From: Bacteroidota bacterium
Lineage (GTDB): Bacteria; Bacteroidota; Rhodothermia; JANXDC01
NCBI GenBank assembly: GCA_025059945.1
Contig: JANXDC010000004.1
Location: forward strand, 62,001 to 126,000
Direction of reading: 5' to 3'
Length of the DNA: 64,000 nucleotides
The notes beneath the pieces were generated by a model, which ran no database searches, was not told the origin of the DNA, and saw only the letters and a program-made list of their open reading frames with translations. Shown one piece after another: positions 42,751 through 48,709 of this stretch. Both the position numbers and the translations under genes were made by a program. Every line of letters begins with the position of its first letter. Position 1 is the first letter of the stretch.

Positions 42751-43650
42751 ATGGAAAACGTCTTACAGGCCCTGCGCGCGGCCGTCGCGTATCTAACGCA
42801 ACACGGGGTGCCGGAGGCCCGTCAGAGCGCCGAGATGCTGCTGGCCCATGTGCTGGGCTGCCGGCGTCTGGACCTGTACGGGTTCCCCGAAAAGCCTCTT
42901 GGGGCCTCTGAGCGGGCCCGGTTTCGGGCCCTGCTGCGCCGGCGCGCCCGACGGGAGCCAGTAGCCTACATCCTGCGGCAAGCCCCCTTCTATGAGGACC
43001 TGTTCTACGTCACCCCCGCTGTGCTCGTGCCCAGGCCCGAGACGGAGCACGTAGTCGAGGTGGTGCGCGAGCGGGCCCCAAGGGATCTCAGGCGGATTTT
43101 GGACATCGGCACCGGATCGGGATGTCTAGCGCTTACGCTGAAGCGGTTCTTCCCCGAAGCCGAGGTTTGGGCCGTGGACGTAAGCCGCAGGGCTCTGGCC
43201 GTGGCCCGGAAAAACGGCCGACGCCTGAATCGAAGGGTGCGCTGGGCGCAGGCGGACGTGCAAAGCCCGGATTTTCTGTCCGCTCAAGCCCCTTTTGACC
43301 TCATCGTTTCCAACCCGCCCTATATCCCCCTTGCTGAGCGTCCGACTTTGGAGCCGGAGCTGGCCTACGAACCGGAGGAAGCCCTGTTTTGCGGGGAGGA
43401 TCCCCTGTTCTTCTATCGCCTCATCCTGGGGCACCTGCCGCGTCTGCTGACCCCCGCGGGGCTGGTGGTCTTGGAGGTGCACGCCGATCATGGCCCTGCG
43501 GCGCAGCGGCTCTTTCAGGAGTCCGGATGGCCGGCTCATCTGGAGCGGGATTACGGGGGGCTTTCGCGGGTGCTTTGGGCCTATCGTCCTCTTGAGGAGA
43601 CTAAGAGGGAGTGTCCTCGAGGCGGCGCCGGTGCAGGTAGCGGTCGATGA
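42751..43650 (+). CDS. prmC: Peptide chain release factor N5-glutamine methyltransferase
   Basis: A 299-residue enzyme with an N-terminal helical domain and a SAM-dependent domain: YVTPAVLVPRPETEHVV, ILDIGTGSGCLALTLKRFFP and the signature NPPYIP. It methylates the GGQ glutamine of release factors. The last about 15 residues (ETKRECPRGGAGAGSGR) look like read-through beyond the conserved end, and the gene overlaps the convergent Nudix gene by 50 bases there. Confidence 0.96.
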   Translation: MENVLQALRAAVAYLTQHGVPEARQSAEMLLAHVLGCRRLDLYGFPEKPLGASERARFRALLRRRARREPVAYILRQAPFYEDLFYVTPAVLVPRPETEHVVEVVRERAPRDLRRILDIGTGSGCLALTLKRFFPEAEVWAVDVSRRALAVARKNGRRLNRRVRWAQADVQSPDFLSAQAPFDLIVSNPPYIPLAERPTLEPELAYEPEEALFCGEDPLFFYRLILGHLPRLLTPAGLVVLEVHADHGPAAQRLFQESGWPAHLERDYGGLSRVLWAYRPLEETKRECPRGGAGAGSGR

Positions 43651-44170
43651 GCAAAAGGGCCAGCATGGATTTCATGTCTTCGATTTCGTTGCGGTAGACC
43701 ATAGCCATGGCTTCGGGCCATGGCAAGCGAAGCGGCTCCAGGAGCTCGTCCTCCTCCTTTGGTGCGGGCTCCTGGGTGAGCTCTTCGGCCAGATAGAGGT
43801 ACATCACCTCATTGGAGTAGCCGATACAGGGGTAGAAGCGGGCGATGAAGGTGAGCCTTTGGGCTCGGTAGCCCGTTTCCTCTTGCAGTTCCCTTCGGGC
43901 CGTCTCCTCCGGATTCGCCTCCGGATGGTCGAGCTTGCCGGCCGGAACCTCGACAAAGGTTTTGCCCACCGCGTAGCGAAATTGGCGCACCAGCAGGGTG
44001 CTGCCGTCCGGAAACAGGGGCACGGCGATCGCCGCCCCCGGATGGCGGATCCATTCCCGTATAGCGGTCCGTCCGTTGGGCAGCCGCACGGTATCTCGGT
44101 AGGCCTTGATGAGAACACCTTCTACAAGTGGAAGGCTTTCCAGGCGTACTTCTTCTAGAGCGCGAGGCAT
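43601..44170 (-). CDS. NUDIX hydrolase, ADP-ribose pyrophosphatase-like
   Basis: A 189-residue protein whose sequence FVEVPAGKLDHPEANPEETA leads into RRELQEETGYRAQ, the catalytic core of the Nudix box. The overall pattern, including VRQFRYAVGKTFVEVPAGKL and ARFYPCIGYSNEVMYLYLA, fits ADP-sugar pyrophosphatases, which hydrolyse ADP-ribose and related compounds in the cytoplasm. The substrate is not provable. It is 10 bases downstream of the phosphatase gene at 44181, in the same direction, so may be in that operon. Confidence 0.92.
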   Translation of the reverse strand: MPRALEEVRLESLPLVEGVLIKAYRDTVRLPNGRTAIREWIRHPGAAIAVPLFPDGSTLLVRQFRYAVGKTFVEVPAGKLDHPEANPEETARRELQEETGYRAQRLTFIARFYPCIGYSNEVMYLYLAEELTQEPAPKEEDELLEPLRLPWPEAMAMVYRNEIEDMKSMLALLLIDRYLHRRRLEDTPS

Positions 44171-44180
44171 ACGGGGGTCC

Positions 44181-45875
44181 CTATAGATGCGCGCGCAGTA
44201 CGAGCGCGGTCAGGTCATCGTCAAAGGTTTCCCTGCCGCTAAAGGCCCGCAGCTCCCCCAGTAGGGCCTCCAGAAGCAGCGGGGCAGGGGTATCGCGCCA
44301 TTTGCGCAGGGCCATCCGGAGCCGATCCACGTCGTACCATGTGCCCTGCGGGTCGCAGGTTTCCGTCAGCCCGTCGGTATAAAGAAAAAGCACATCGCCC
44401 GGTTCCATTTCGATAGCGCAGCTTCTATATGGGCCCGCCGTGGGCAGGACGCCCAAAAGCAGGCCGCCGGTGCTGAGTTCTTCCAGATCCCCGTTGGCGC
44501 GCAGCCATAGCGGTGGGACGTGACCTGCGTTGACGTACCGGAAAGTGCGCCGACCCGGATCCAGAATCCCCCAAAAGAAGGTGATGAAGGTGCCGGGATC
44601 CGTGTTGTGGCAAATGATGGCATTGATGCGGGCTGTGGCCTCCTCTATCGACATAGGTATGGAGGCGAGCACATGCAACATGGCCTGGAGATTCGCCATA
44701 AGCAGAGCGGCTGGCACGCCCTTGCCTGTTACGTCCGCAATGGCCACAAGAAACCGCTCGCGCTCCAGGGGCAGCACGTCGTAGTAGTCCCCCCCCACAG
44801 GCCGGATGGAATGCGCGTAGGCGGCGAGCTCAAATCCGGGGATGTCCGGTAGCTTGCGGGGTAGCAGACCCTGCTGGATACGCTGCGCAAGGCGCAGCTC
44901 CTCATCGAGGCGCTGTTTTTCCAGCCAGGTCTCGATCAGGTACGTGTTCTCTAGGGCGATGCCGGCCAGCTGGGCGGCAGCCTCCAGAAACCGAAGTTCG
45001 GCCTCCTCTAGAGGTGTTCCCGCGGCGCGAGGGCCAACAAGGAGCACGCCCCGGGGACCGTCTTGCAGCCGAATGGGCACGATCCACTCCAGCCCCCAGT
45101 CTGGGGGCGCTTCTTCAGATGCGATGCGCCGGGCTCGGGGTTCTTCCAGCCAGGCCGCGGGTATGGCTTCGGCCGACAGCGGTGCGGGCAGTCCGCGCGC
45201 CAGCAGCATCGCTGCAGGGCGGCCGGGTGGGCGAAACAAGATCGCAAATCGGGACACGAGCAGCTGTCCCATGAGCGTGTAGCCGATGCGCTTTAGCAGG
45301 GCCTCCCGATCGAGGGTGCTGTTGAGCGTGCGGCTAAGGTCCAGCAGGGTCTGCAGTTCGTGTACGCGGCGGTCCAGTTCCCGGTTGGTCTGACGCAGTT
45401 GCTTCACGACGAACGCGCTCGAAAGGCCCAGCGCCGTGATGTTCGTCAGCGCCTCCAAATACTGCCGCTCATAGGCAGAATAGGTCTCCCCGGTCGCCTT
45501 GGCGCCCAGTAGCAGCGCACCTAGGGGTCCGTTCTGGGCTACGAGGGGGAAAAGCGCAACAAGCCCTGCCTTGCGAAGCGGCTCAGGCCAGTTCTCTGGC
45601 TCCAGTTCGCCTCGGATGAGCGCCTGCGGAAGCCGTAGCGCGCCTCCGGGCTTCCAGCCGGGGATGCCGCGTGCGCGCGCTATACGAAACAGGCCCGATG
45701 CATCTCGCCACAGGATCGCCCCGCGTGTGCTGAGCAGCTTGGCCATGGCGATTCGGAGCAGGTTGTCCAGGATGAAGTCCGCATCCAGCGAGCCGACCAG
45801 CAGCCGGCTCGTCTCCAGAAGCGAGCTCAGGTCGTAGCGCTGCGGGGCCTCAGGACCGATCAAGGAGGCGTGCAT
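44181..45875 (-). CDS. PP2C-type (SpoIIE/RsbU) serine phosphatase with GAF domains
   Basis: A 564-residue soluble protein. Residues about 15-160 and 185-320 look like two GAF-type sensor domains (ALTNITALGLSSAF, LRFLEAAAQLAGIALENTYL). A short coiled coil with RLAQRIQQGLLPRKLPDIPG leads into the phosphatase domain, with VGGDYYDVLPLERERFLVAI, ADVTGKGVPAALLMANLQAM, NAGHVPPLWLR and FDDDLTALVLR, including the metal-binding aspartates. It should dephosphorylate the STAS protein at 46272. The start overlaps the kinase stop by 16 bases. Confidence 0.93.
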   Translation of the reverse strand: MHASLIGPEAPQRYDLSSLLETSRLLVGSLDADFILDNLLRIAMAKLLSTRGAILWRDASGLFRIARARGIPGWKPGGALRLPQALIRGELEPENWPEPLRKAGLVALFPLVAQNGPLGALLLGAKATGETYSAYERQYLEALTNITALGLSSAFVVKQLRQTNRELDRRVHELQTLLDLSRTLNSTLDREALLKRIGYTLMGQLLVSRFAILFRPPGRPAAMLLARGLPAPLSAEAIPAAWLEEPRARRIASEEAPPDWGLEWIVPIRLQDGPRGVLLVGPRAAGTPLEEAELRFLEAAAQLAGIALENTYLIETWLEKQRLDEELRLAQRIQQGLLPRKLPDIPGFELAAYAHSIRPVGGDYYDVLPLERERFLVAIADVTGKGVPAALLMANLQAMLHVLASIPMSIEEATARINAIICHNTDPGTFITFFWGILDPGRRTFRYVNAGHVPPLWLRANGDLEELSTGGLLLGVLPTAGPYRSCAIEMEPGDVLFLYTDGLTETCDPQGTWYDVDRLRMALRKWRDTPAPLLLEALLGELRAFSGRETFDDDLTALVLRAHL

Positions 45876-46297
45876 CGGTGGTACTTGATAAGGCGCACCA
45901 TGTTGGTGCCGTTGCGGTGCTCGTAGCGCACGGCGTCCATGAGTCGCCGCATGAGCATGAGGCCCAATCCGCCCCGGTGGCCGGTGCGGATGAGCGCAGC
46001 TAGATCGGGCTCCTGGTAGGCGGCCTCATCGAACATCTTGCCCCGATCCAGGAGCACGATCTCCAATCGATCCGAGTGCGCTTCCACGCGGATCCGGATG
46101 CGCCGCGAGGCGTCTCCTCCGTAGGCGTGTTTGATGATGTTGGTGCAGGCCTCATCGACGGCGATCACGATCTGATCGACTTGATCCTCCGAAAAGCCCG
46201 AGCGCAGGGCCTGTGCGCGCACAAATTCGCGCACGCGGGCCAGGGCTTCGGTTCGGCTGGGGACGGTGAGCTCACTCCGGTCGCGGGGTTTCGGCAT
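45860..46297 (-). CDS. Anti-sigma factor-type serine kinase (RsbW/SpoIIAB-like)
   Basis: About 145 residues from the ATG at 46297; an ATG at 46351 would extend further into the STAS gene. The GHKL ATPase fold has the N-box VIAVDEACTNIIKHAYGGDA, a G-type box DRGKMFDEAAY and GGLGLMLMRRLMDAVRYEHR, and GTNMVRLIKY. Such kinases phosphorylate a STAS antagonist and bind a sigma factor or other output protein. No sigma-factor gene is next to it. It overlaps both neighbours. Confidence 0.93.
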   Translation of the reverse strand: MPKPRDRSELTVPSRTEALARVREFVRAQALRSGFSEDQVDQIVIAVDEACTNIIKHAYGGDASRRIRIRVEAHSDRLEIVLLDRGKMFDEAAYQEPDLAALIRTGHRGGLGLMLMRRLMDAVRYEHRNGTNMVRLIKYHRCTPP

Positions 46298-46643
46298 GGC
46301 GGGCAAAGCGGGCGACCGCCTCGGCTTCGGTCGGCACGATCTCGTATACAAGGGGGAAGCCCAGCAGATCGAAGATGTTGTAGATCTTCGGGCTCATGTG
46401 GCAGAACTTGATATCCCCTCCTTGGGCGCGCACGGTTTCTACGTAAGCCATAAACACGCCCAGACCGGCGCTAGAGATGTAGGAGAGTTCCGCGCAGTTG
46501 ACCACTATGCGGTAGCGCCCTTCTTGGAGCGACCGCTCAAAGGCGGCCTCCAGTTCAGCGGCGGTATGGGCGTCCAGCTCGCCCCGCAGGTAGAAGATCT
46601 CGACCCCGTCATGGGAGCGGAAGGAGACGGAAAACTGGCTCAT
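46272..46643 (-). CDS. STAS-domain anti-sigma factor antagonist (SpoIIAA/RsbV-like)
   Basis: A 123-residue single STAS domain, with YLRGELDAHTAAELEAAFER and AELSYISSAGLGVFMAYVET. Ser57/Ser58 are the expected phosphorylation site. In the unphosphorylated state it would bind the kinase encoded downstream and free its target. Its stop overlaps the kinase gene by about 26 bases and its start overlaps the large phosphatase stop as ATGA (46640-46643). Confidence 0.94.
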   Translation of the reverse strand: MSQFSVSFRSHDGVEIFYLRGELDAHTAAELEAAFERSLQEGRYRIVVNCAELSYISSAGLGVFMAYVETVRAQGGDIKFCHMSPKIYNIFDLLGFPLVYEIVPTEAEAVARFARHAETPRPE

Positions 46644-48709
46644 GGTTCCCCTCTTGGGCGTTGCAACATAACCAGGGTGCAGTCGTCTTGCCAGGCGGCC
46701 TGGCCCGTGTGCCAGGCCACCGCCTTGAGGAGTTCCTCTTCGAGGGCCTCAAGGGGTCCGTTGTGCTCGGCCAACAAGGCCAGCAGCCGCTCGTATCCGA
46801 ATTCCTCACCGCGCGCGCTGCGGGCCTCCACCAATCCATCGGTGTAGAGCAAGAGCAGGTCTCCGGGCTCTAGCGTGAGCATGCACTCTTGAATCAGGCT
46901 TCGGAAGCGGCCATCCCGAATCAGCCCCAAGCCTGGACCTTGCGTGCGCAGGAAGCTTGTTTCGCCGCCAGCGCGCCGCAGCAGCGCAGGCGGGTGTCCG
47001 GCACGGGCCAAGCGCAGCCGAAACGTGCGGGGGTCGAGCCATCCCACCAACATGCTCACAAACAGACGCGCATCCAGGTGCGCACTTAAGGCCGCGTTGG
47101 CGCGCTCTAGCAGATCGGTCGGGCTCGGAACCTCACGGGCCAGCGTTTGAAAGATACCCTTCAGCTCGGCCATGTAAAACGCAGCCGATATCCCCTTGCC
47201 GGAGACGTCCGCGATGGCGAAGGCCAGCTGGCCGTCGGCGCGCCAAAGAAAATCGTAATAATCGCCCCCCACGCGCTCAGCCATAAGGGCCCGTGCCCGG
47301 ATGCGCAGGCCCGGCTGTTCCGGGATTTGTTGAGGGAGCAAGCGCTGTTGGATCGCGCGCGCGATCTCCAGCTCGCGTCGCAGGCGTTCCCGCTCCAGGG
47401 AGGCCTCCAGAAGCCGGGCGTTTTCCAGGGCCAAGGCGGCCTGGTCGGCCAGGGTTCGGATGAGCAGGACGTCGTCCTCTTCAAAGCCGAAGGCCACGTC
47501 TTTGGCCACATAAAGCACGCCCATGGGTTCTTCGCGCGCGTAAAGGGGAACGGCCAGTAGCGATCCTTTCCCGTCGGGCAGGCGGCTAAGCAGAAGCTCC
47601 TGTCGCCTTTCCAAGACGGTGCGCGAAAGCTCCCCGTCGGCCCAACGTTTGATCTCGGCCTCCTGCATCCCGTACGAGGCGGCCAGGCGAGGCCGCGTGG
47701 AGCCAGATTCCAGGTCGAGCAGCTCCAGCCAGGCCGCCCGGGCGTCGACGGCCTCGGCGGCCGAGGCAGCTATGGTGCGCACGAGCTTGTCCGCGTCGAA
47801 AAGCTCCGTGATGAGCCGGCTTACGTTGCGCAGGCTGCTGAGTTCAACGTGTTTGCGCTCAAAGACGGCCGATGTGGGTAGGTGGAAGAGCGCGCTCAAG
47901 ATCGTCGTGCTGTTGTACAGCACCCCGAAGATGAGCACCAGCAGCCCGAACATCTCCAGCGGGTAGTCGTATAGCCAGCCGGCCCGTTGGCGCGCCGCCT
48001 CCGTGGGCCAGAAGCCCAGGGTGTTTTGGGCAAGCAGCGCGCCCATAAGGAAGGCGTTCAGGCCCGCCAGGACCAGGGCGGCAAGCTTCTTACGCGCGGG
48101 CAGGTATACGAGCCAAGCCAGTCGAAAGCTACACCAGAGCATAAGCAGGCCCGAAAGTAGGGCCAAAACAATGGCCAGCCCGTGAGGTGCCTCTCGATAC
48201 GGCACCATAAAGAGGCTCAAGGCGCTCAAGGCGAAGCCCAAAAGCATGGCGTTCCAGCGGCGGACCGCCTTAGGGGTGCGCTTGTAGAGGACAAGCTCGC
48301 GCAGGTTGAACAGGGCCCAGAACGCGTACACAGCCTGGGCCAAATCCAGCAGATGGGCGCGCAGCAGGGCCGCAAACCCGACAGGGGGGGAGGAGGCGAT
48401 CGGAGGGCCAAACGCGGCCTCCAGAGCCCAGCTCAGAAACAGTAGGCCCAAGCCCCCCAGCAGCATCCGCCAAAGCGCCTCTAGCGGCGCAGGCCGGCTG
48501 GCCGCGTAGCGGTGGTGAAAGTACGCGAACAGAGCCCCGTAGCTTGCGATGAGCACCAGGCCGCGCGCAAAGCCCAGTTCGGGCACCTCGAGCGCAGGCC
48601 CGGCCCCGGCCCGAAGGGCGAACAGAAGGACGTCCAGTCCCCAAACGAGCCCGTTTAGGGCTAGAGCCCCTAGCAGCCAACCGCCATGAGGCCATCGAGG
48701 AAGCCGCAC
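46640..48709 (-). CDS. Membrane-bound PP2C-type (SpoIIE/RsbU) serine phosphatase with GAF domain
   Basis: A 689-residue protein starting with GTG at 48709. Residues 1-280 form about eight hydrophobic segments, for example FALSALSLFMVPYR and LAALVLAGLNAFLMGALLAQ. A GAF domain follows (about 300-430: LFDADKLVRTIAASAAEAVD, LIRTLADQAALALENARLLE), then a coiled coil with IARAIQQRLLPQQIPEQPGL, then PP2C motifs VGGDYYDFLWRADGQLAFAI, ADVSGKGISAAFYMAELKGI, LARAGHPPALLRRAGG and WQDDCTLVMLQ. It may sense envelope or membrane state and activate the STAS protein. Confidence 0.93.
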   Translation of the reverse strand: MRLPRWPHGGWLLGALALNGLVWGLDVLLFALRAGAGPALEVPELGFARGLVLIASYGALFAYFHHRYAASRPAPLEALWRMLLGGLGLLFLSWALEAAFGPPIASSPPVGFAALLRAHLLDLAQAVYAFWALFNLRELVLYKRTPKAVRRWNAMLLGFALSALSLFMVPYREAPHGLAIVLALLSGLLMLWCSFRLAWLVYLPARKKLAALVLAGLNAFLMGALLAQNTLGFWPTEAARQRAGWLYDYPLEMFGLLVLIFGVLYNSTTILSALFHLPTSAVFERKHVELSSLRNVSRLITELFDADKLVRTIAASAAEAVDARAAWLELLDLESGSTRPRLAASYGMQEAEIKRWADGELSRTVLERRQELLLSRLPDGKGSLLAVPLYAREEPMGVLYVAKDVAFGFEEDDVLLIRTLADQAALALENARLLEASLERERLRRELEIARAIQQRLLPQQIPEQPGLRIRARALMAERVGGDYYDFLWRADGQLAFAIADVSGKGISAAFYMAELKGIFQTLAREVPSPTDLLERANAALSAHLDARLFVSMLVGWLDPRTFRLRLARAGHPPALLRRAGGETSFLRTQGPGLGLIRDGRFRSLIQECMLTLEPGDLLLLYTDGLVEARSARGEEFGYERLLALLAEHNGPLEALEEELLKAVAWHTGQAAWQDDCTLVMLQRPRGEP

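Follow-up and report, generated by a model that had tools for sequence, protein, structure and literature searches.

Introduction

Most of what is known about partner switching comes from Gram-positive bacteria, with a few examples from Bordetella, from Chlamydia and from Vibrio and Shewanella (in part PMC8256260). Here we describe a putative partner switch encoded in a 64,000-nucleotide stretch of DNA from a Bacteroidota bacterium (GCA_025059945.1). This stretch, hereafter the window, corresponds to positions 62001-126000 of contig C4 in a 2.14 Mb draft genome of 16 contigs (completeness 100). It contains four overlapping minus-strand genes in the order A - STAS - kinase - C, in which A and C are SpoIIE-type phosphatases. 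We consider it likely that these genes form a complete partner-switch input core, in which two phosphatases serve one STAS/kinase pair, and that their target, whose gene lies away from the cluster, is not a sigma factor of the SigB/F/G type and not a diguanylate cyclase. The parts and the two-phosphatase principle are already known. Among the literature matches listed, nothing in the titles and the openings of the abstracts concerned this conserved cluster in these lineages, its eight-helix sensor or its target.

The Bacillus subtilis RsbU/RsbP-RsbV-RsbW-SigB system resembles the present one in having an RsbW-like kinase, a STAS protein with one conserved serine, and two PPM phosphatases per STAS, RsbV being a substrate of RsbU as well as of RsbP (PMC7522486). 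It differs in that the class studied here has no SigB/F/G above the cut-off, Pfam reports neither an RsbU N-terminal domain nor a PAS domain in A or C, A carries a predicted eight-helix membrane sensor, and both phosphatases lie in a single cluster.

Chlamydia trachomatis has a membrane RsbU and is not known to encode SigB. Its Rsb network shares RsbU, STAS and RsbW components with the present genes; RsbW there is reported to bind the primary sigma factor, sigma66 (PMC4552016), and the kinase described here might likewise bind RpoD. The Chlamydia network combines RsbV1 and RsbV2 with RsbU, whereas one STAS protein stands beside two phosphatases here. Clostridioides difficile RsbZ is, like C, a GAF-PPM phosphatase, and has a predicted coiled-coil linker (PMC12143880); RsbZ has a tandem GAF, compared with one GAF domain recognized by Pfam in C, and it feeds SigB. 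Mycobacterium tuberculosis Rv1364c, the top PDB match of both A and C, likewise unites phosphatase, kinase-type and STAS-type domains (PMC12143880), although as a single fused protein and not as separate genes.

RsbT orders the linker of RsbU into a coiled coil, upon which the phosphatase dimerises, and AlphaFold2 predicts similar linkers behind other sensor domains, including the tandem GAF of RsbZ (PMC12143880). A and C have the same sensor-linker-PPM plan. Phosphatase-STAS specificity is set by three surface loops, and the kinase and phosphatase interfaces overlap only partly (PMC11418112), so two phosphatases acting on one STAS protein would be allowed. Together with the RsbU/RsbP-RsbV and RsbW-sigma66 reports, these findings lead us to interpret the four genes as a partner switch that has two inputs and an unlinked target.

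Components of the Cluster

The genes and domains are as follows, in window coordinates.

46640..48709, minus strand: gene A, membrane phosphatase, 689 residues, GTG start (Pfam: GAF; SpoIIE, E 9e-49); eight predicted membrane helices, GAF, long helix and SpoIIE/PPM phosphatase (Pfam and AlphaFold2 model)
47849..48691, minus strand: predicted eight-helix membrane domain of A, residues 7-287 (Pfam, NCBIfam, AlphaFold2, fold searches)
47423..47794, minus strand: GAF domain of A, residues 306-429 (Pfam)
46658..47236, minus strand: SpoIIE/PPM domain of A, residues 492-684 (Pfam; motif Asp residues conserved)
46272..46643, minus strand: STAS antagonist, 123 residues (PF01740, E 2.5e-18; above the TIGR00377 cut-off)
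46470..46472, minus strand: Ser58 codon of the STAS gene, predicted phosphorylation site (invariant in 145/145 STAS sequences)
45860..46297, minus strand: RsbW-like HATPase_c_2 kinase, 145 residues from ATG (PF13581, E 1.5e-32; nearest structure RsbW 6m36), for which an upstream TTG at 46306 is a possible alternative start
44181..45875, minus strand: gene C, soluble GAF-SpoIIE phosphatase, 564 residues (Pfam: GAF; SpoIIE, E 1e-47)

The coordinates, strand and families of these four genes had been given in an earlier sequence-only reading, and the open reading frames and Pfam bear them out. The nearest solved structure to the kinase is RsbW in the RsbW/RsbV entry 6m36 (E 5e-21), with SpoIIAB entries matching more weakly (2e-5 to 3e-5). 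Both ATP-site motifs of an RsbW-type kinase, N and G2, are present: the Glu and Asn of the N-box and two Gly of the G2-box are invariant in 115/115 sequences.

The STAS protein exceeds the TIGR00377 cut-off, and its closest solved structure is SpoIIAA. The window protein has Ser at position 57 as well as at position 58, and the sequence-only reading had named both for a check of phosphorylation. In an alignment of 145 sequences, which includes other STAS proteins of the surveyed loci, Ser58 is present in 145/145, while the three commonest letters at position 57 are S (97), N (31) and A (15). Since only Ser58 is invariant, it is the likely phosphosite, and Ser57 is an unlikely one. The protein thus has the conserved phosphorylatable serine of a STAS antagonist.

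A and C are both PPM phosphatases (PF07228) with intact motif Asp residues. Across the SpoIIE domains compared (78 of A, 74 of C and 20 of D type, classes that were set by length and predicted helices after domains of <185 residues had been dropped), these residues are conserved, with D486 in one A as the sole exception.

Two AlphaFold2 models of A are confident, with a mean predicted local distance difference test score of 90.1 for residues 1-465 and of 90.4 for residues 1-288. They contain eight long helices, which are read as membrane helices; the eighth extends towards the GAF domain, and a helix of ~45 residues runs from the GAF domain towards the phosphatase domain. Among 54 A orthologues, no Pfam family besides GAF and no NCBIfam family is found in more than 1/54. 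A fold search with the first A model was swamped by GAF matches, and the membrane domain was searched separately: Foldseek returned zero PDB structures at E up to 0.001, and the best VIA Z value was 7.5 (MukF, root-mean-square deviation 3.6, 142 residues), such values being common for helical models according to the tool notes. The absence of a convincing solved fold does not show that the eight-helix domain is a new fold. Residues W199, K208, F275, P278 and T279 of the sensor are invariant across the 54 rows.

In C, the Pfam GAF match is confined to residues 212-310, and the part N-terminal to it has no Pfam match. A profile built from residues 1-165 recruits 190 open reading frames, compared with 192 and 194 recruited by two other GAF profiles, which is no more than suggestive of a second GAF domain. 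The envelope and cytoplasmic signals that the sequence-only reading proposed would fit the domain make-up of A and C, respectively.

Conservation and Evolutionary History

A search of the phylum with the kinase matched 229/296 genomes at E 0.001, and in 140/296 the best match had an E value of 1e-20 or lower, a limit of our own choosing; the latter are termed strong-kinase genomes, although a best match may be a paralogue. Open reading frames and domains were called in 40 fetched stretches plus 80 named loci (the best 80 of 512). The loci were picked by similarity to the window kinase, and the layout counts thus describe a ranked, non-random sample.

Four duplicate loci (L111, L118, L147, L152) and L033-L036 were removed. 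Labelled by the position of any SpoIIE domain, the remaining 115 kinases comprise 56 in the layout SpoIIE-STAS-kinase-SpoIIE, 23 in SpoIIE-STAS-kinase and 22 in STAS-kinase-SpoIIE, one of which is by inference the window genome's own second system. Two more have STAS-kinase only, one (the genome's own orphan kinase) has none of these layouts, and for 11 the locus runs into the end of its contig. No separate kinase open reading frame was called in L078 and L110, of which L110 is in the layout count and L078 is not. The kinase tree has 114 rows; one kinase of <=100 residues, presumably the genome's own paralogue on contig C10, was left out, and kinase open reading frames of >=260 residues, including the fusions L164, L177 and L182, stand outside it.

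The four-gene order is found mainly on the Ignavibacteria side, where 51 rows of a 62-row clade of the kinase tree have both phosphatases (support 85). In the clade with named Balneolota, 18/18 rows have STAS-kinase-C with no adjoining A (support 93). The clade with named Rhodothermota (21 rows, support 85) contains 15 rows with A-STAS-kinase, two cut downstream and two that are STAS-only or cut upstream; C adjoins the kinase there only in the window and its congener. An extra SpoIIE gene (842-884 residues, 9-11 predicted helices) follows C in 17 loci by hand count.

In a FastTree tree of SpoIIE domains (184 rows), the window C lies apart from A, inside a 77-row clade of 73 C and 4 unclassed domains (local support 99). 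The A and C classes need 8 and 6 changes on this tree, compared with 59 and 58 in shuffles. A and C are thus old, separate orthologues that have stayed next to one STAS/kinase pair, which supports two inputs into one switch, as the sequence-only reading had proposed.

A full-length C is encoded at another place in 14/14 class genomes searched (query residues 8-15 to 560-562; E 3.4e-101 or better), so C is kept even where it is unlinked. Twelve of these genomes have their kinase in the Rhodothermota clade, and the other two (G175, G290) are not in the tree. Genes near the unlinked C were metallophosphoesterase-like, metal-dependent-hydrolase-like and outer-membrane-like by eye, and no regulator was seen among them. 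The C tree requires one linked/unlinked change (support 71), and when rooted by hand on L097 it places the window C and that of its congener beside the 14 unlinked C (support 79, weak). The simplest reading would be that the four-gene order is ancestral and retained in this genus, and that C relocated once in its relatives. Full-length A looks to have been lost in the Balneolota type, or to have diverged beyond detection (12 genomes searched, see below).

On the Bacteroidota side, the cluster is a deeply conserved, probable two-input version of partner switching, belonging to a class in which SigB/F/G did not pass the cut-off. Lineages in which only A or only C stands beside the STAS-kinase pair serve as natural experiments on the sharing of one switch by two inputs.

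Proposed Mechanism

Gene content, intact motifs, conservation, orthology and the absence of SigB/F/G and GGDEF proteins are direct results; the reversible phosphorylation of the STAS protein, the nature of the signals, the role of the helix and the choice of target are inferred. In the resting state, the kinase would phosphorylate the STAS protein at Ser58 and be left free to hold the target protein. Activation of A, through its eight-helix sensor and GAF domain, or of C, through its GAF domain, would lead to dephosphorylation of the STAS protein, and activation probably proceeds by ordering of the helix connecting the sensor and PPM domains, as in RsbU. The dephosphorylated STAS protein would then bind the kinase, and the target would be released. 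Either A or C alone would be sufficient to fire the switch, which would thus act as an OR gate.

Several points weigh against this scheme. The phosphorylation cycle and the action of two phosphatases are predicted from sequence, and the kinase scores well under the NCBIfam RsbW cut-offs (93 of 145 bits and 86 of 155 bits). In the kinase tree, which was built from 130 columns, deep forks reach supports of 81-93, and the layout counts come from similarity-chosen loci. C is unlinked in the 14 class genomes described above and could act on another of the five STAS matches in this genome. In 12/12 Balneolota-type genomes (six with loci in the Balneolota clade and six placed there on the basis of their family label), A has no match that reaches into residues 1-244. 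Given the missing full-length A in the latter and the unlinked C in the former, A and C need not share a substrate everywhere.

The Output and Alternative Explanations

The sequence-only reading had found no sigma factor nearby. This holds for the window, which contains none of the genome's sigma region-2 matches, and, as regards SigB/F/G (TIGR02980), for the class: in a search confined to the class and controls, 0/80 class genomes, including that of the window, were above the cut-off, compared with 1/14 controls. A cognate SigB-type factor is thus not found in these class genomes. The best full-length TIGR02980 matches in the window genome are its RpoD-type and FliA-type proteins. Its 11 sigma region-2 matches comprise one RpoD type (L023), one FliA type, one fusion and eight resembling extracytoplasmic function (ECF) factors, the ECF assignments being made mostly by size and eye. 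The statement does not hold in Melioribacteraceae/Ignavibacteria, where an ECF sigma gene lies upstream.

Our guess is that the target is RNA polymerase, reached via either the primary sigma factor or one of the ECF factors, in analogy to the binding of sigma66 by RsbW in Chlamydia. The identity of the target would tell how these bacteria run their general stress response. A more far-reaching version, which we regard as improbable, is an ancestral, SigB-independent switch of Rhodothermota, Balneolota and Ignavibacteriota in which a previously undescribed eight-helix membrane sensor and a soluble GAF sensor would together set the availability of the primary sigma factor, serving as a growth throttle and not as a stress-regulon switch, and which would have become wired to an ECF factor in one lineage.

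Of the alternatives, a target other than a sigma factor is the most likely one, quite possible if short of probable. BtrW and SypA/SypE systems are partner switches with non-sigma targets. The lack of SigB/F/G in the class agrees with such a target, as does the lack of a shared output gene near the loci: the commonest neighbour family occurs in 26 loci, and the recurrent families (acyltransferase, glycosyltransferase, SecD/F, MATE, leuS; all neighbours except the ECF pair were named by eye) are lineage-specific. However, RsbW is a closer match to the kinase than SpoIIAB is, and one lineage has a linked ECF sigma gene. Moreover, one non-sigma target suggested by the sequence-only reading, a diguanylate cyclase, is excluded for this genome, as it has 0 GGDEF matches (PF00990), compared with matches in 8/14 controls.

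Another alternative, in which the target is an ECF sigma factor or its anti-sigma protein, is unlikely. Of the 105 scored loci, 25, essentially of the Melioribacteraceae/Ignavibacteria lineage, have an ECF gene upstream in the same orientation; this is a lower bound, since some loci with short upstream flanks were scored as lacking it, nine others having been excluded by judgement. Of these loci, 23 also have an anti-sigma-like gene, the end of which is no more than 67 nt from gene A in 16 of the 23, and Pfam confirmed sigma regions 2 and 4 in 4/4 ECF proteins tested. An example of the pair is L149:2592-4473, and several such loci also carry a divergent small STAS gene. On the other hand, the linkage takes three changes to explain on the tree of kinases and is a trait of essentially one lineage, and zf-HC2 matches are weak and below the cut-off in 2/3 anti-sigma-like proteins tested. 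Furthermore, six of the ECF proteins compared with the genome's 11 sigma-like proteins matched several different ECF factors best, at ~30-36% identity, and no clear orthologue was found among these 11.

On the input side, an alternative is that only A serves this STAS protein, C acting on a different one and its linkage being a relic. The unlinked position of C in 14/14 class genomes agrees with this, as do the five STAS matches in the window genome, along with another set of STAS, kinase and phosphatase genes on its contig C10. Nevertheless, since the STAS-kinase-C loci of the Balneolota clade have no adjoining A (18/18) and such genomes have no full-length A (12/12), the orthologous STAS protein there has C as its linked phosphatase; both phosphatases are also kept at 56 kinases. 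We therefore think this alternative unlikely, and favor two phosphatases acting on one STAS/kinase pair.

Finally, the flagellar sigma factor FliA, encoded at C4:351451-352113 and the only alternative sigma factor above the FliA/WhiG cut-off in the genome, is a very improbable target: it is commoner with a strong kinase (53/140 genomes vs 10/156 others; Fisher p 2.6e-11, kinship uncorrected), but 87/140 strong-kinase genomes have no FliA above the cut-off, which weakens the case, the association is absent within the class (41/70 vs 3/4), and the gene adjoins flagellar genes, FlhA (FHIPEP) and an SRP54-type, FlhF-like gene, a setting in which control by FlgM would be expected.

A genus-specific fusion was also considered as the output and rejected, being present in only 2/296 genomes, both of this genus. 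This protein of 361 residues (C3:47049-48131, minus strand; L030:1018-2103) has an S30AE domain (24.6 bits; cut-off 23.7), as in ribosome hibernation factors, followed by a match to sigma-70 region 2, which scores at the cut-off, and one to region 4.

Neighbouring Genes and Other Partner-Switch Genes

The four-gene module of the sequence-only reading is right in its four genes but stops one gene early, as a further gene lies just past C.

43601..44170, minus strand: NUDIX hydrolase, 189 residues, 10 bp past the end of C (Pfam)

The overlaps of 4 nt (A/STAS), 26 nt (STAS/kinase) and 16 nt (kinase/C), together with the 10-nt gap between C and the NUDIX gene, suggest that A-STAS-kinase-C-NUDIX is one predicted transcript, of which the NUDIX gene is possibly the fifth member. 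NUDIX profile matches among the 127 fetched stretches were limited to the window and one same-genus locus (L067). The cluster is divergent from a threonyl-tRNA-synthetase-like gene, named by eye. A promoter scan gave two minus-strand matches, both intragenic, and none upstream of A, with a consensus that may not be that of the host.

Further partner-switch genes are found elsewhere in the genome. The second set on contig C10 (C10:86037-87922; L031:6038-7923) consists of a STAS protein, an HATPase_c_2 kinase and a receiver-SpoIIE phosphatase. The orphan RsbW-like kinase (C10:11093-11680, minus strand; L032:7094-7681), for which the NCBIfam RsbW models are below cut-off, lies downstream of genes that by eye are secretin-like and PilT/GspE-type ATPase-like. 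A SpoIIE phosphatase of 825 residues with a hydrophobic N-terminal part is encoded at C4:39589-42066 (minus strand; L033:7590-10067), with no STAS or HATPase_c_2 match within the stretch C4:32000-50000.

Among the surveyed loci, three fusions from Candidatus Krumholzibacteriia, all running off their contigs (L164:6427-10437, L177:6974-10972 and L182:6729-9218), combine an HATPase_c_2 kinase with sCache, HAMP, SpoIIE and helix-turn-helix domains, and 2/3 contain three STAS stretches. Such a protein would be a single-chain partner switch with a possible DNA-binding domain.

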